A program made the translations under genes and the position numbers. Below the pieces are notes generated by a model that saw only the letters and a program-made list of their open reading frames with translations, made no database searches and was not told the origin of the DNA. This document shows positions 46,067 through 54,956 of a stretch of DNA of 64,000 bases, piece after piece (the first letter of the stretch is position 1; each line of letters begins with the position of its first letter). Origin of the DNA: Paracoccus aerodenitrificans (lineage in GTDB: Bacteria > Pseudomonadota > Alphaproteobacteria > Rhodobacterales > Rhodobacteraceae); NCBI RefSeq assembly GCF_027913215.1, contig NZ_CP115784.1, positions 1,674,001 through 1,738,000 on the forward strand. Reading direction: 5' to 3'.

Positions 46067-46080
46067 GCATAACTGAAACG

Positions 46081-46147
46081 CGCGAAGGGGCTCTGCCCCT
46101 CGCGCCGAAGCGGCGCTCACCCCGCGATATTTAAGCCAGGATGAAAT
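46081..46147 (+). repeat. Intergenic repeat, copy 3
   Basis: GGGGCTCTGCCCC and CGCGCCGAAGCGGCGC hairpins lead to CCCCGCGATATTTAAGCCAG and GATGAA. The ATATTT...CCAGG.TGAA tail matches copies 1 and 2 at 30.3 kb. It lies downstream of the sulfotransferase gene in the same orientation and runs up to the stop of the convergent exonuclease gene. Confidence 0.55.
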
Positions 46148-48102
46148 CAGTTGCCGTGCGCGGCGGTGAGGTTTGCGTCGCTGAGCAGGCGGCGATGTCT
46201 TTGCGCCTGTGCGAGAACGTCCTGAAACCGGGTGATGCCCTTGGCCTCCAGCGCGGGCAACATGCGCAGATAGGCCTGCGCGGTTGCGGCGGCGTCTCCC
46301 ATTGCGGTGTGGCGCAGTTCCGCGGGCAGCTCGACCTTCAGCCTGTCGCAAATCGCATCGAGGCTGTGGACCGCGCCCTGCCCCCAGATCATCGCCGAAA
46401 GCAGTACCGTATCCATCACCCGGTTCGGGAAATGCTGGCCGGTTTCCGCTTCCGCCGCACGGAGCAGCCCCATATCGAACGGTGCGTTATGCGCGATCAG
46501 CACCGCCCCTTCCGAGAAATGATGAAACCCGCGCAGAGCGGTTGTCATATCCGGGGCGTCGGTGACCATCTGATCGGTGATGCCGTGAATAGCGGTCGAG
46601 GATTGCGGAATCGGGCGGCCCGGATTGACCAGAGTATCGAAGGTTTCGCCGGTCAGCCTGCCTCCGGCAAGGCGCAGCCCGGCAATCTGGACGATGCGAT
46701 CCGAGAGAGACAGTCCCGTCGTCTCGGTATCGAAGACCACACAGGTCAGCACGTTCAGCGGCCTCTGATCCGGCGCGGCGCGGCTGGCAAGCGCGAAATC
46801 ATAAGTGACCGAGGGACGCGCCTCACGGGCGACAGGAGAAATGCTCAGCGGAAGGGTGACCGCCGCGCCGGGTTCCGGCCAGATGCCGCTTCCATGCGCG
46901 GCAAGAATATCCGCGCCGGTCAGTTCGGGATGATCCGGATCGGGCGCCTCGTTCAGCCAGAGATCCAGCAGATCCGCGGGCAGATCCGCGCCTTGCCAGC
47001 GAAGCTGCAGAACGGCCTCGGCCTCCTTTTTGCGGATCGAGACGGTCGGAGGGCGTCCGCTTTCGGCCAGACGCTGCCCCAGCAAAGCAATCAGACCGCC
47101 GATCTGCCAGCCATCGGCGGCCAGCGTCACCGGCGCGATATCGTCCAGCGGAAGTCCCAGACCACGCGCCAGTTCCTCGGCGGCAACGCGGCGCTGTCGC
47201 GGGGCTGAGGGCGTCAGCGCTTTGTCCAGATCGCGCAACGCCGTGGCGATACCCTGCCCTTCATCGCGGATCGTCTGTTGCAGCCTGTCCGGCAGTGGCG
47301 CGTCAAGCCCGTCCAGCAGCGGGATCAGCGCAGCGGCATGGCGGCGCAGCGCCTCGACCGGGGCGCGGGGCGGGACAGGCTCTCGTCTGGCGGGGCGCAG
47401 GATCAGGATCGTGCCGCCTTCCTCATCCTGCATCTGCCGCAAGCGTCCCGAAAGCCTTGTCCCGTCCACGCCGCATAACGCCACATCTGTCGCCCCGGCC
47501 CCCGCCGCAAGCCGTTTCTGCGCCGCGTCCAGCCCGCCGGGCTTCAGGAAACGCCGCAGATCGCGGTCAAGCGCCAGCCCCGGCAGAAGCTGAGCGCTTG
47601 CCGCATTATAGAACAGCACCCGCCCGTCAGGATCGGTCAAAATCGCGCCTGCCCCGATATCGGAGAGAATATGTTCCAGCATGGATTTTTCGCGCGACTG
47701 AGCCTCGGCATGGGCGGACAGCGCCTCTGCCAGCCGGGCCTGCGCACGCGCCTGAGACTGCGCCGCAGCCCGCGCAGCCGGGGCGAGATCGGCCAGATAG
47801 CGGCCTTCCTTTTCATCGGGGACCGAGCCGGTCAGCAAGGCTCCGGCAAGGGTTTCGACCGGGCGGGCGATATTGGCGTCGAAAAGATACCAGACCAGAG
47901 TCACCAGCCCAAGCCCGCCCAGACCGGCAATCAGCGCGATATCGGCAAGCGCGTCGGTCATGCCGGGCGGGGCGGTGCCGCCTTCAGGGACCAGCACCCT
48001 GCCCGCAACCAGCAGCGCCACGGCAAGCAGCGCCAGAACCCCCGCAGCAAGCCCGGCGAAGATCAGGAACACCCGCAGCCGAAGCGACAGCCGCATCAGC
48101 AT
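46147..48102 (-). CDS. Membrane PAS/degenerate-kinase protein fused to a DnaQ-type 3'-5' exonuclease
   Basis: This is a 651-residue hybrid. Transmembrane helices lie near 9-34 and 53-73, followed by a HAMP-like helix and coiled coil (75-140) and a PAS-like domain (145-240). A region at about 250-423 recalls DHp and ATPase domains but lacks the H-box and N/G boxes (end: GSGIWPEPGAAVTLPLSIS). A complete DEDDh exonuclease at 450-620 has Asp458/Glu460 in VVFDTETTGL, Asp543 in IAHNAPFDMGLL and His598-Asp603 in HTAMGDAA. It overlaps the upstream lone receiver gene by 7 bp. Its role is unknown; signal-controlled DNA or RNA degradation is a hypothesis. Confidence 0.85.
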   Translation of the reverse strand: MLMRLSLRLRVFLIFAGLAAGVLALLAVALLVAGRVLVPEGGTAPPGMTDALADIALIAGLGGLGLVTLVWYLFDANIARPVETLAGALLTGSVPDEKEGRYLADLAPAARAAAQSQARAQARLAEALSAHAEAQSREKSMLEHILSDIGAGAILTDPDGRVLFYNAASAQLLPGLALDRDLRRFLKPGGLDAAQKRLAAGAGATDVALCGVDGTRLSGRLRQMQDEEGGTILILRPARREPVPPRAPVEALRRHAAALIPLLDGLDAPLPDRLQQTIRDEGQGIATALRDLDKALTPSAPRQRRVAAEELARGLGLPLDDIAPVTLAADGWQIGGLIALLGQRLAESGRPPTVSIRKKEAEAVLQLRWQGADLPADLLDLWLNEAPDPDHPELTGADILAAHGSGIWPEPGAAVTLPLSISPVAREARPSVTYDFALASRAAPDQRPLNVLTCVVFDTETTGLSLSDRIVQIAGLRLAGGRLTGETFDTLVNPGRPIPQSSTAIHGITDQMVTDAPDMTTALRGFHHFSEGAVLIAHNAPFDMGLLRAAEAETGQHFPNRVMDTVLLSAMIWGQGAVHSLDAICDRLKVELPAELRHTAMGDAAATAQAYLRMLPALEAKGITRFQDVLAQAQRHRRLLSDANLTAAHGN

Positions 48103-48470
48103 TTTTCGATGTCCAGCACCCGGGCCATTTCCGCCCGAAGTTCGGCCAGTTCGAAAGGTTTCGCGATGAACCCGTCCGCGCCAAGCGCTAACCCCTTGCG
48201 CCGCTCCATCACCGAGCCCCGCGCCGTCATCATCAGCACCCGCACATCGAGCAGACCCGGATCGGCCCGCATTTCCTGCACGATCTGATAGCCCGAGACA
48301 CCGGGCAGCATGATATCCAGCAGCACCAGATCGGGCCGCATCTCGCGCAGAGCCGATGTCGCGCCCTCGCCGGTGGCAAGACGCATATGTTCATGCCCGT
48401 CGCGCGTCAGCAGGAAATCGAGCGCGAGGGCGATATTGTCCTCATCCTCGATGACCATGATCCGCGCCAT
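48096..48470 (-). CDS. Stand-alone response-regulator receiver domain
   Basis: This 124-residue CheY-like receiver has no output domain. The acidic pocket (IEDEDN), phosphoacceptor Asp in DLVLLDIMLPG, Thr in MMTARG and Lys in FIAKPFELAEL are all present, so it should be phosphorylatable. Its 3' end overlaps the membrane exonuclease gene, which contains kinase-like sequence but no H-box. A true kinase must act from elsewhere unless the hybrid protein works by another route. Confidence 0.93.
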   Translation of the reverse strand: MARIMVIEDEDNIALALDFLLTRDGHEHMRLATGEGATSALREMRPDLVLLDIMLPGVSGYQIVQEMRADPGLLDVRVLMMTARGSVMERRKGLALGADGFIAKPFELAELRAEMARVLDIEKC

Positions 48471-48473
48471 CTC

Positions 48474-48977
48474 CTAACCCTCTCCGCAGATCGCGGCAAA
48501 AGCGGGATCGCCCTCTGAGGCCTGCCGCCATTCGCCCTCGGGCTGCCGGGTCCGGCCATTGGCGCAATCCACACCCTGTTCAACCGTGACGCTGCGCTTC
48601 CAGCGTTCGACAAGGATCACCGGAACGATATTGCTGCCATCATCGCCCTGCCGCACCGCATCGGGATCGATCAGCGCCATGCGCGAGGTCGGCGCGATCA
48701 GCAGGGTCCAGGGACGCAAAGCACTGCGCGAGGTGCCCTCGGCGATGATATCGACCCGTTCGGGCAGTTGCGCCTTGATCCGGCTGGCCCAGCTATATTC
48801 GTTCCAGCTTGCAAAGGCGATGATCGCCGCGCCGATCCCGGCGGGCAGAACCCATGTAGGCAGCGGACGGCCCGCGCGGCGCATCGCATGGGTGATCGCA
48901 AACAGCAAAGCCGCCGCCCCGATCGCCACGGCGAATGTCCCCAGAAGATCGGCGGCAACTCCGCTGAGACGGTTCAT
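48474..48977 (-). CDS. Small membrane protein of unknown function in the acetate cluster
   Basis: This 167-residue protein has two transmembrane helices, near 8-30 (LLGTFAVAIGAAALLFAITH) and 42-58, and a C-terminal extracytoplasmic domain of about 100 residues with two Cys. I do not recognise the family. It lies between the DUF294 gene (4-bp overlap at its start) and the receiver gene (3 bp after its stop), so it belongs to that operon. Confidence 0.7.
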   Translation of the reverse strand: MNRLSGVAADLLGTFAVAIGAAALLFAITHAMRRAGRPLPTWVLPAGIGAAIIAFASWNEYSWASRIKAQLPERVDIIAEGTSRSALRPWTLLIAPTSRMALIDPDAVRQGDDGSNIVPVILVERWKRSVTVEQGVDCANGRTRQPEGEWRQASEGDPAFAAICGEG

Positions 48978-50785
48978 GACAGCACTCCCTTACCCTGTCC
49001 CAAAGCGGATTGCATCGTGCGCACCACGACAAACGCATCCCGCAAATGACTGCGTTCGAAATCCGGCAGATCCGAGGGCGACAGGAAATTATCCGGTTTC
49101 CGCCCCGCCTTGACCAGAGCTGCCTGATTTTCCAGCCGCAGGCTCTGGATCAGATCATACGCTGCGATCAGATCCCGCGCTCCCCGGCCAGAGATCACCC
49201 CGGCATCCTCGGCTTCCTCCAGCCGGGCGCGGGTATTCACCGCCGTCAGCCTGCCCCGCAGCGCATGGACCCGCGCCATATCGGCGACTGGCACCACCCC
49301 GTTCATCTTCATGTCGATATGGCCCAGATGCTCGCCCGAACGGATCGTGGCAAAGCCCCGGATCAGCCCGAGCGGCGGCTGATGCTTCAGCGAATTCGAG
49401 ATCATATGCGCAACGAAGATCGAGTTTTTCGACGCGAGCTCAAGCGTTTCGGCCTGCAACCCGGACAGCAGCGCGGCATCGCCTCCGATCGCCCGCAGAT
49501 CGAACATGACCGAGGCCAGAATCTGCGCTTCCGGTGAAGGTTTCTCGATCCAGCCCCGGAAGTAATCGCGCCAGACGCTGCGCGGTTGCCGCCATCGCGG
49601 ATTGGTCGCCATCATGTCGCCGGGGCAATAGACATAGCCCGCCGCATTCAGCCCGTCGCTGACGAACCGGGCGAGGCTTTCATAATAGGGATCAGCCGGG
49701 TCGGTGCCATCGGTCAGGATCATGATATTATCCTGATCCGACACGCCGGTTTGATCCTGCCGCCCCTGACTGCCGCATGCCGCCCAGAGATAGGGCGCGG
49801 GCGGTGGGCCAAGCTGCGCCTCGGCCATGACCAGAAGCCGCCGTGTCACCGCATCGGCGATATCGGTGATCAGCCGCGTGACGACCTCGTGCCGCTGATG
49901 CGCTGCGACCAGCGAGACCAGCAGATCCGGGATACGCGAGGTGACCGCGGCCATGTCCCCGACAGTATCCGCCTGCGCCACATCGCGGATCAGCACCGAT
50001 GCCGAGATCGCCTGCACACGAGTCAGATCGGTCTGCGTGATCATCCCGACAAAGCGCCCGGCCTCGACCACCGGCAGATGACCGACGCGGCGCTCCATCA
50101 TGGCATTCAGCACATCCGAGCCAAGCGCCGAGGGCGGCAGACTGACCGGATCGGCGGTCATGATCGCGCTGACCGGATCAGAGCCGTCGCGGCCCTCGGC
50201 AACGACTCGGTTCGACATATCCCGGATCGTCACCAGCCCCAGCAGAGCGCCCGATGGATCGGTGATCCCAAGCGAAGAGACATGCGCCTGCCGCATCATC
50301 CGCGCGGCCTCGGCAATCGGCGTCTCCGGCGCGGCGCTCAGAGGGCTGCGGGTCAGCAGATCCGATACTTTCAGCGTTGCGATGTCTGCTCCGCCGCGCG
50401 TCGCAGGCCTGCCGCGACGGAAGAACCGGGCGAATGCCGGGCTGTCATTCAGCAGGTGCCGGAACTCGGCGGCAGGCAGCATCAGCACCGCTCCGGGCCG
50501 GATCACGCGGGCGGTGGTCGCGGCGGCGCCATCCTCAAGCAGGCCCCGCTCACCGAAACTGTTGCCGCGCGACAGCGATGAGACAAGACCGCCATGCGCA
50601 TCGGTGATCTCGACAGCGGCATTTTCGATCAGATAAAGCCCGTCAAGCCGTTCGCCGTGGCGATAGACGAACTCATCTGCGGCATATTCCCTGCGGGCGA
50701 AGGAACCGGCCACGCGGGTCAGCTCGTCCTCCGGCAGGCTGTCATAGGGGTGAATGCTGGAAATGAATTGCAGGATCTGATCCAT
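48974..50785 (-). CDS. cNMP-binding / CBS / DUF294 nucleotidyltransferase-like protein
   Basis: This is a 603-residue cytosolic protein. A cyclic-nucleotide-binding-like domain covers residues 10-120 (GNSFGERGLLEDGAAATTAR). Two CBS domains follow at about 140-260. A DUF294 GlnD-like nucleotidyltransferase domain has the GS...DxD pattern GSQGRQDQTGVSDQDNIMI at about 340-360. A C-terminal DUF294_C domain ends the protein. Such proteins often sit beside acetate or dicarboxylate uptake genes and are thought to be regulators sensing nucleotides. It follows the symporter gene after a strong terminator and overlaps the next gene by 4 bp. Confidence 0.88.
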   Translation of the reverse strand: MDQILQFISSIHPYDSLPEDELTRVAGSFARREYAADEFVYRHGERLDGLYLIENAAVEITDAHGGLVSSLSRGNSFGERGLLEDGAAATTARVIRPGAVLMLPAAEFRHLLNDSPAFARFFRRGRPATRGGADIATLKVSDLLTRSPLSAAPETPIAEAARMMRQAHVSSLGITDPSGALLGLVTIRDMSNRVVAEGRDGSDPVSAIMTADPVSLPPSALGSDVLNAMMERRVGHLPVVEAGRFVGMITQTDLTRVQAISASVLIRDVAQADTVGDMAAVTSRIPDLLVSLVAAHQRHEVVTRLITDIADAVTRRLLVMAEAQLGPPPAPYLWAACGSQGRQDQTGVSDQDNIMILTDGTDPADPYYESLARFVSDGLNAAGYVYCPGDMMATNPRWRQPRSVWRDYFRGWIEKPSPEAQILASVMFDLRAIGGDAALLSGLQAETLELASKNSIFVAHMISNSLKHQPPLGLIRGFATIRSGEHLGHIDMKMNGVVPVADMARVHALRGRLTAVNTRARLEEAEDAGVISGRGARDLIAAYDLIQSLRLENQAALVKAGRKPDNFLSPSDLPDFERSHLRDAFVVVRTMQSALGQGKGVLS

Positions 50786-50799
50786 TTCGGCCCCGTCAG

Positions 50800-50834
50800 G
50801 AAAAATGCCGCGCCCCCGGTATCAGGGGCGCGGC
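50800..50834 (-). terminator. Strong terminator between the symporter and DUF294 genes
   Basis: A perfect 10-bp stem GCCGCGCCCC / GGGGCGCGGC with an 8-nt loop is followed on the minus strand by ATTTTTCC. It separates acs-DUF4212-symporter transcripts from the regulatory genes downstream, fully or in part. Confidence 0.85.
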
Positions 50835-50841
50835 GCGTGGT

Positions 50842-52650
50842 TCAGTGACCCGTGGCCGCACCGGCTCCGCGCGGAACGCGGATCGATTCGACCAGTTCGA
50901 CGATCTCCTCGGGCGGTTCTTCGGTCGCATTGGACACGAAATACGCCACGCCGAAATTGATCAGTGCACCGATCACCCCGAAGGATGCAGGCGAGATGCC
51001 GAACAGCCAGTTTGCCGGATTATCCTCGAACAGATTGGTGCCCGCGATGAACAGGAACCCTTTATACGAGAAGATATACAGCAGCGTTGAGGCGATACCG
51101 GCAACCATGCCCCAGATCGCACCCTGCTTGTTGATGCGGGTCGAGAAGATCCCCATCATCAGCACCGGGAAGATCGAGGATGCCGCAAGCCCGAAGGCAA
51201 GCGCCACGGTCTGCGCCGCAAAGCCCGGCGGATTCAGCCCCAGTATCGTCGCAACAAGGATCGACACCGCCATCGAGATCCGGGCGGCGTTCAGTTCGCC
51301 CTTCTCGCTGATATCCGGCGCGAGCCAGCCTTTCACGAGGTCATGCGACACCGCACCCGAGATCGCCAGCAGCAGACCCGCCGCCGTCGACAGCGCCGCA
51401 GCCAGACCGCCCGCCGCCACGATGGCGATGACCCATCCCGGCAGGTTGGCGATTTCGGGATTGGCCAGAACCATGATGTCGTTATTCACGGTTGTCAGCT
51501 CGTTCCCGGTCAGACCCTGTTCCTCAATGGCTGCGGTCAGCGCTTCGCTTTCGCCGCTTTCATTATAGTACTGGATCAGGCCGTCGCCGTTCTTGTCTTC
51601 CCAGTTCAGCAGGCCGGTCACCTGCCAGTTGCGCATCCACTGCTTGTCCTCATCGTTCTCGATGGATTCAAGCGTGACGGCGGGCTGGCTGAACGTCTCT
51701 CCGGCCTCGGCACCCGGCCACATCGTCGTGGTCAGGTTGAAGCGCGACATCGCCCCCACAGCCGGAGCCACGGTGTAAAGCAGAGCGATGAAGACAAGCG
51801 CCCATCCCGCCGATTTCCGCGCATCCGCGACTTTCGGGACGGTGAAGAAGCGGATGATGACATGGGGCAGACCCGCCGTCCCGATCATCAGCGCCAGCGT
51901 GAACAGCGCCATATCCAGCGTGCTGGTGTGATGCGCGGTATATTGACGGAAACCCAGATCGGTCACCACCTGGTCCAGCTTGGCCAGGAACTTCGTGTCG
52001 GTCCCGCTCAGATTGCCGAACAGCCCGGTCTGCGGCAGGAAATGCCCGGTCAGTTGCAGCGCGATGAAGATCGCCGGGATCGTATAGGCGATGATCAGCA
52101 CCACATATTGCGCCACCTGCGTATAGGTGATGCCCTTCATCCCGCCCAGGACCGCATAGCAGAACACAAGCGCCGCCCCGATCCAGAGGCCGGTCGAGTT
52201 CGACACTTCCAGATAGCGCGAGAAGGTCACGCCGACGCCGGTCATCTGCCCGATCACATAGGTGATCGAGATGATCAGCAGGCAGACCACGCCGATGATC
52301 CGCGCGGTGCGCGAATAGAAGCGATCGCCGATGAATTCCGGCACGGTGAACTTGCCGAATTTGCGTAGATAGGGCGCCAGCAACATGGCCAGCAGCACAT
52401 AACCGCCCGTCCAGCCCATCAGATAGGTCGAGTTATCATAGCCGGTAAAGGCGATCAGCCCCGCCATCGAGATGAACGAAGCCGCAGACATCCAGTCCGC
52501 CGCCGTCGCCATGCCGTTCATCACCGGGCTGACGCCCCGGTTCGCGGCATAGAACTCGCTTGTGGATCCCGCGCGGGCCCAGATCGCGATGCCGATATAC
52601 AGCGCGAAACTCAGACCGATGAAGATCAGATTGAGGGTAAACTGGCTCAT
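50842..52650 (-). CDS. Sodium:solute symporter, VC_2705/ActP-like (probable acetate uptake)
   Basis: This 602-residue SSS-family transporter has about 13 transmembrane helices, with GFVSPVMNGMATAADWMSAAS-like sequence early and AAGGLAAALSTAAGLLLAIS later. A hydrophilic insertion at about 320-390 contains DKNGDGLIQYYN, an EF-hand-like loop starting at Asp352. The insertion and the adjacent DUF4212 small subunit point to the VC_2705 subfamily (TIGR03648, as I recall) rather than classical ActP. Position next to acs supports acetate or another short-chain acid as substrate. It starts 2 bp after the DUF4212 gene. Confidence 0.88.
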   Translation of the reverse strand: MSQFTLNLIFIGLSFALYIGIAIWARAGSTSEFYAANRGVSPVMNGMATAADWMSAASFISMAGLIAFTGYDNSTYLMGWTGGYVLLAMLLAPYLRKFGKFTVPEFIGDRFYSRTARIIGVVCLLIISITYVIGQMTGVGVTFSRYLEVSNSTGLWIGAALVFCYAVLGGMKGITYTQVAQYVVLIIAYTIPAIFIALQLTGHFLPQTGLFGNLSGTDTKFLAKLDQVVTDLGFRQYTAHHTSTLDMALFTLALMIGTAGLPHVIIRFFTVPKVADARKSAGWALVFIALLYTVAPAVGAMSRFNLTTTMWPGAEAGETFSQPAVTLESIENDEDKQWMRNWQVTGLLNWEDKNGDGLIQYYNESGESEALTAAIEEQGLTGNELTTVNNDIMVLANPEIANLPGWVIAIVAAGGLAAALSTAAGLLLAISGAVSHDLVKGWLAPDISEKGELNAARISMAVSILVATILGLNPPGFAAQTVALAFGLAASSIFPVLMMGIFSTRINKQGAIWGMVAGIASTLLYIFSYKGFLFIAGTNLFEDNPANWLFGISPASFGVIGALINFGVAYFVSNATEEPPEEIVELVESIRVPRGAGAATGH

Positions 52651-52651
52651 C

Positions 52652-52909
52652 TTACTCCTCCACGCCGTGTTCGCGGTCGAGCTTGTTCATGCGCCAGGCA
52701 TAGAAGAAGATCAGCACGATAAAGACCAGGATCGAGCCCTGCTGCGCGAACCAGAACCCCAGATCGGTGCCTCCGATGCCAATGCCGCTGAGCAGAGGCC
52801 GGAAGATGATCGCGAAGCCATAGGACACCAGTGCCCAGATGGCGATGCAGATATAGATGATCCTCAGATTCGCGCGCCAATAGGCGTTGGTTGATTGCTT
52901 GTCGCTCAT
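52652..52909 (-). CDS. DUF4212 symporter small subunit
   Basis: This 85-residue protein has two transmembrane helices, at about 16-38 and 55-78, with YWRANLRIIYICIAIWALVS and WFAQQGSILVFIVLIFFYAW. This is the DUF4212 (TIGR03647-like) family, which partners the adjacent VC_2705-type symporter. Its stop lies just before the symporter start, so the two are surely co-translated. Confidence 0.92.
   Translation of the reverse strand: MSDKQSTNAYWRANLRIIYICIAIWALVSYGFAIIFRPLLSGIGIGGTDLGFWFAQQGSILVFIVLIFFYAWRMNKLDREHGVEE

Positions 52910-53000: not shown

Positions 53001-54956
<1,956 letters not shown>

Follow-up and report, generated by a model that had tools for sequence, protein, structure and literature searches.

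A membrane-anchored DEDDh exonuclease with a degenerate histidine-kinase core, encoded with a lone receiver in an acetate-type operon of Paracoccus aerodenitrificans

The outputs of two-component systems are mostly transcription, second messengers or motility. The nearest tested precedent for the locus described here is DivL, a Caulobacter pseudokinase whose dead core binds phosphorylated DivK (DivK~P) and whose phosphoacceptor position is held by Tyr (Y550; PMC4211667). In Pseudomonas putida KT2440, pp_0353 (RNase_T) and pp_0354 (a CBS-domain protein) belong to one operon under MxtR/ErdR, which is found close to glcB and apart from actP; a mutant in pp_0353 has a defect on pyruvate, and mRNA decay is the authors' speculation for its product (PMC9927547). 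The PA3232‒PA3235 cluster is up in growth on propionate, and PA3233‒PA3235 are down after propionate addition in a separate experiment (PMC9765439). We analyzed a 64,000-nucleotide stretch of Paracoccus aerodenitrificans (hereafter the window; GCF_027913215.1, contig NZ_CP115784.1, positions 1,674,001‒1,738,000), in which a membrane protein carries a kinase-derived core and a DEDDh exonuclease, and its gene overlaps that of a lone receiver domain. The pair and the parts of the exonuclease protein are as follows.

48096..48470, minus strand: lone receiver domain, 124 residues (PF00072, 84.6 bits; D52 and K104 kept)
46147..48102, minus strand: membrane-PAS-pseudokinase-DEDDh exonuclease protein, 651 residues (domain matches and structure model)
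47830..48084, minus strand: two hydrophobic helices, residues 7‒37 and 48‒91 (structure model and sequence)
47392..47658, minus strand: PAS domain, about residues 149‒237 (Pfam, relatives and model)
47215..47367, minus strand: DHp-like hairpin, residues 246‒296, with Glu250 at the phosphoacceptor place (model and alignment)
46840..47148, minus strand: CA-like (HATPase-derived) domain, residues 319‒421, ATP-site residues lost (model and alignment)
46270..46740, minus strand: DEDDh 3'-5' exonuclease domain, residues 455‒611 (Pfam, fold and alignment)

The first-pass annotation, made from the letters alone, had described the middle region as shaped like DHp/HATPase but devoid of the H-box and the N/G boxes. 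The profile and structure check that it proposed was run, and structure comparison and profile-to-PDB search both give the region a histidine-kinase fold (DHp and CA). With the H-box register taken from an alignment with VicK and that of the N-box from an alignment with ThkA, Glu250 occupies the place of the H-box His, where the 84 rows of the main residue alignment of the exonuclease protein have Asp (50), Glu (33) or Gln (1). Arg344 replaces the N-box Asn (Arg in 58 of the 84 rows), and WxG replaces the DxG of the G1-box in all 84, so the boxes are lost as described, save for a decayed G2-like stretch that survives in the core. Among 38 rows from a phylum-wide sample, the phosphoacceptor place holds Glu in 24, Pro in 5, Asp in 2, Thr in 2, and Met, Ala and Gln in one each, with gaps in the remaining 2; a phosphoacceptor His appears neither in these rows nor in the 84-row alignment. 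Pfam HATPase_c and HisKA are not reported for the window protein, nor are they among the 25 families listed, of 30, for 52 relatives. Judged by alignment, the region is a degenerate histidine-kinase core that has lost its ATP-site residues. Most simply read, the family gave up kinase function before it spread and retained the nuclease.

The nuclease, in turn, is intact as first claimed: RNase_T (PF00929) matches with 117.8 bits, the modelled fold agrees, D458, E460, D543, H598 and D603 are identical in 84 of 84 aligned rows, and all five are retained in the 38 phylum rows. The two transmembrane helices also find a counterpart in the two N-terminal hydrophobic helices predicted by sequence and model. 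The HAMP-like coiled coil does not: no HAMP family is found among the Pfam matches, and the structure model places a long helix (residues 106‒147) after the hydrophobic helices. For PAS, the window protein itself gives a weak match (PAS_4 with 22.4 bits, against a cut-off of 23.1); of its relatives, 45 of 52 match PAS at E ≤ 10. The remark that such exonucleases are rarely fused to sensory modules is not supported: the fused proteins make up a separate family. The named proteins within the best 120 matches are from Paracoccus.

The receiver likewise has the features expected of an intact phospho-Asp domain, D52 and K104 being invariant in eight aligned receivers, and its gene overlaps the exonuclease gene by 7 bp (48096‒48470 against 46147‒48102), as noted in the first pass. 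Linkage was surveyed in three samples. The named-genome set covers the 80 best of 178 related loci, so that long forms are over-represented in it; here the receiver adjoins the exonuclease at 80 of 80 loci. The phylum sample comprised 398 genomes, 57 of which match the query P0242; its 58 matches gave 38 loci that were read, after exclusion of 13 already in the order sample and 7 short exonuclease-only matches, and a same-strand receiver stands beside the exonuclease at 34 of the 38. The order sample comprised 149 genomes, 90 of which match at E ≤ 1e-30; stretches from all 90, extending 8 kb upstream or to the contig end, were read, and this more even sample is the better basis than the named-genome set. 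Together with the degenerate core, the linkage supports as likely the earlier proposal that the receiver is a partner of a pseudokinase. Neither of the two outcomes that the first-pass annotation had named as refuting it was observed.

A kinase for this receiver is suggested by relatives. A symporter-type (SSS) kinase gene is linked at 23 of the 38 phylum-sample loci. Twenty of these kinases were checked on longer stretches, where 19 are full length with the motif SHELRTP and one covers query residues 93‒891 without it; the other three are full length. On Cupriavidus necator pBB1, read by eye from open reading frames, the order is symporter, SSS-type kinase, receiver, exonuclease, DUF294 and acs. 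In Paracoccus methylovorus (L086), a second exonuclease type is preceded by DUF294, a small gene, an 899-residue protein (HisKA and HATPase_c, with a symporter match below threshold) and a lone receiver; by annotation, plasmids of P. denitrificans and P. aminovorans share this gene order. The window's own genome encodes, at C5:77937‒80513, a protein with HisKA and HATPase_c that is 42% identical to the L086 kinase. It is the best candidate for phosphorylating the receiver, and a candidate only. In that region (L088, G000:C5, about 76.5‒82 kb), a ScfRs-domain protein, a second lone receiver and the SSS-type histidine kinase stand in a row.

We lean towards a reading in which the protein is a membrane-anchored PAS-DEDDh nuclease whose dead kinase core serves as a docking and sensing platform for the neighbouring receiver, with a separate kinase phosphorylating the receiver and the nuclease being switched. 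It starts from properties computed directly, namely the domain make-up, the loss of kinase residues, the intact nuclease and receiver, the operon, the linkage and co-loss, and the SSS-type kinase that adjoins the pair in relatives. Acetate or a related monocarboxylate would be sensed by the separate kinase, most likely of the symporter type, which would phosphorylate the lone receiver. By analogy with DivK~P on DivL, the receiver would then dock on the DHp hairpin of the dead core and either activate or silence the nuclease; we infer the docking, the identity of the kinase here and the sign of control. The PAS domain and the membrane helices, retained even in short forms, may provide a second input. 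As output, a nucleic acid, more probably RNA than DNA, or some other phosphodiester bond would be turned over while the cells grow on short-chain acids. The exonuclease protein probably reads the state of the receiver.

The order sample provides a natural comparison. The core profile divides its 90 loci into 25 with core and receiver, 9 with core and no receiver, 55 with neither, and one with a receiver and no core match, which is a paralogue whose own core escapes the profile (L226). In the 55 short forms, the membrane and PAS profiles match in every case, and the spacing between PAS and nuclease is 26‒66 residues, against 203‒247 in long forms. The nine core-bearing rows that lack the receiver have lost the RRPAAN stretch and have a shorter hairpin, whereas their CA-like part persists. 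A hairpin profile built solely from phylum-sample rows gives a median score of 9.9 (−0.7 to 39.0) for receiver-bearing core rows, −2.3 (−4.1 to −0.5) for the nine, and −3.3 (−9.0 to 1.6) for short forms. Decay of the hairpin where the receiver is missing is the pattern expected if the hairpin exists to meet the receiver. The association has a Fisher p of 1e-13, computed on rows that are related. In a tree of 115 rows (63 order rows, with 27 of the 55 short forms excluded, 38 phylum rows and 14 plasmid rows), with hairpin states assigned by hand from alignments, 111 rows are concordant (64 with both, 47 with neither) and 4 are discordant. The core/exonuclease divergence ratio was dropped as evidence because the groups hardly differ (1.94 for all receiver-bearing rows, 2.00 without the Paracoccus clade, 2.19 for receiver-less rows).

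The same loci bear on the possibility that the core is a mere rod for dimerisation or signal transmission between PAS and nuclease, with the receiver acting elsewhere, as a phosphate sink of an unlinked kinase or on the DUF294 protein or the symporter. The nine core-bearing order loci without a receiver, and likewise L084 and L102, speak for it, as does the fact that the unlinked SSS-type kinase comes with its own neighbouring receiver. However, what decays in the nine is the DHp hairpin, on which the receiver of a kinase docks, while the CA-like part persists, and short forms with linkers of 26‒66 residues keep the membrane helices and the PAS domain, so a rod is not needed. Since the receiver and exonuclease genes are moreover overlapping and linked, we consider a mere rod unlikely.

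Several results weigh against a dead core that docks the receiver. The pairing that the first-pass annotation asked to have surveyed stands at the 80 of 80 and 34 of 38 loci above but is conditional, as the order sample has a receiver at 26 of 90 loci and none at 64. An SSS-type kinase is not encoded in the window (none of 11 kinase matches in the organism's own genome), and a Paracoccus-only profile matched no histidine-kinase core in the PDB by sequence. Hairpin scores overlap between the groups, and the reverse test, with an order-built profile on phylum rows, is weak (median 9.0, −3.8 to 26.3, with the receiver; −1.9 to −3.1 for three rows without). On a tree of the exonuclease domain, the receiver changes twice and the hairpin three times; on the 115-row tree, there are 6 receiver and 7 hairpin changes, too few independent pairs for a test. 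Among the discordant rows, L103 and L173, probably one organism, have a receiver with a decayed hairpin, and L102 and L232 have a hairpin and no receiver, the only receiver match of L232 being weak and on the opposite strand. For pp_0353, no phenotype on acetate or succinate was seen (PMC9927547).

The pair closes a run of genes with the following further members.

53001..54956, minus strand: acs, acetate-CoA ligase, first gene of the run (TIGR02188, 1019.3 bits, cut-off 724.95)
52652..52909, minus strand: DUF4212, small symporter subunit (TIGR03647, 113.3 bits, cut-off 26.05)
50842..52650, minus strand: VC_2705-family sodium/solute symporter (TIGR03648, 812 bits, cut-off 320.75)
50807..50834, minus strand: GC-rich hairpin after the symporter stop, within the operon (folding comparison)
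48974..50785, minus strand: protein with cNMP-binding, CBS, DUF294 nucleotidyltransferase-like and DUF294_C domains (four Pfam families above cut-off)
48474..48977, minus strand: 167-residue protein, hydrophobic stretches near its N terminus (without a family; homologue at 88 of the 90 order loci)
46080..46105, minus strand: terminator-like hairpin right after the exonuclease stop (consensus scan only)

The gaps from acs to the exonuclease gene are 91, 1, 56, −4, 3 and −7 bp. With this spacing and with a terminator-like hairpin behind the exonuclease stop, the seven genes appear to form a single operon, of the acetate-type uptake and activation kind. The symporter and DUF4212 pass both curated cut-offs, a likeness to the VC_2705 system that covers the transporter only. 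No Pfam or NCBIfam match above cut-off was found for the 167-residue protein. At 53% of the 90 loci, the 78 nucleotides after the symporter stop fold at ≤ −35, compared with 7% for 450 random stretches, and a very stable GC-rich hairpin recurs at the same place in L137‒L226; it could shield the upstream message from 3'-5' decay. In two Roseobacter-group operons (L101:3314‒4000 and L105:2985‒3674), an adenylate kinase gene stands ahead of DUF4212 by annotation (Pfam ADK, 182.9 bits, in L101), perhaps recycling AMP produced by Acs. Just downstream of the operon in the window lie a Core-2/I-branching glycosyltransferase gene with DUF5928 (43543‒45120, minus strand) and a sulfotransferase gene (45206‒46066, plus strand).

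DUF294 is the constant neighbour of the exonuclease: in the order sample, DUF294 and the symporter occur at 90 of 90 loci, the small protein and DUF4212 at 88 each, and acs at 80. Plasmids of Rhizobium, Shinella, Ruegeria, Tateyamaria and Limimaricola lack the receiver; they carry DUF4212, symporter, DUF294, the small gene and an exonuclease of shorter length. Because of the constancy of DUF294, we take seriously the alternative of a nucleotidyltransferase writer paired with a nuclease eraser, in which the exonuclease is primarily the partner of DUF294, one adding and the other removing nucleotides on a shared target, be it symporter, RNA or protein, and core and receiver are an optional input. 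The contrast with the receiver, found at 26 of the 90 loci, argues for it. So do five Paracoccus loci (L026, L031, L034, L038 and L057), where the symporter match is weak (127‒138 bits) and DUF4212 has no match, and DUF294, receiver and exonuclease are all retained. Co-occurrence, however, shows no reaction, and we know of no activity for the DUF294 protein or the exonuclease; we hold this alternative to be distinctly unlikely, even with pp_0353 and pp_0354 adjoining each other near glcB, away from actP, in P. putida KT2440. A broader version, to which we give a small chance, joins both ideas: the phosphorylated receiver would gate the nuclease through the dead kinase, and the nuclease would be the eraser to a DUF294 writer, giving a phosphorelay-controlled nucleotidylation cycle that tunes short-chain-acid uptake. 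Such a cycle would be widespread in proteobacteria; several lineages would have dropped its receiver/pseudokinase input and kept writer and eraser as a pair.

The protein could also be an ordinary housekeeping exonuclease, for repair or short-RNA clearance, tethered to the membrane by chance in a metabolic operon. Its domain is indeed nearest to the DnaQ/PolC-type DEDDh exonucleases, with which it shares the fold and the five catalytic residues; it differs from them in being a membrane-anchored sensory fusion in a metabolic operon. Membrane helices and PAS in 55 of 55 short forms, the link to DUF294 and the symporter at 90 of 90 loci, and the carbon-source phenotype of the Pseudomonas gene (PMC9927547) make a housekeeping role highly improbable.

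With regard to the described systems, a core that docks the receiver would resemble DivL with several differences. DivL has Tyr at the phosphoacceptor place, whereas the 84 rows here have Glu, Asp or Gln; the core here is fused to a nuclease in an acetate-type operon, and its receiver binding is proposed by analogy. MxtR/ErdR, which is CrbS/CrbR, shares with our locus and its relatives an SSS-type kinase, a CBS-domain protein, an RNase_T exonuclease and acetate/pyruvate transport genes (PMC9927547 and PMC9765439). ErdR binds promoter DNA in that account, whereas the receiver here is a lone domain; the exonuclease here has a PAS domain and a pseudokinase, and its likeness to pp_0353 is drawn from the published description. 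The SSS-type kinase encoded with its receiver, as in CrbS/CrbR, is absent from the window and linked in relatives at the 23 of 38 loci. Each element, be it pseudokinase, lone receiver, SSS-type kinase or exonuclease gene, is already known. In the open-licence literature searched, nothing was found on the combination of pseudokinase, histidine kinase, receiver and exonuclease, or on that of DUF294, acetate and exonuclease, and no description of this kind of signalling output was met. A fusion of pseudokinase and nuclease accompanied by a receiver appears to be undescribed there, as do the spread of this arrangement and its loss in steps.

If true, two-component signalling would here have an output of a new type, a nuclease addressed via a pseudokinase, found in at least two classes of the phylum, among them that of Cupriavidus. 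It would also offer a testable mechanism for the pyruvate phenotype of the exonuclease gene in Pseudomonas, which so far has no explanation. The series of proteins found in nature, from receiver with hairpin, through no receiver with decayed hairpin, to no core, makes the docking idea directly testable.
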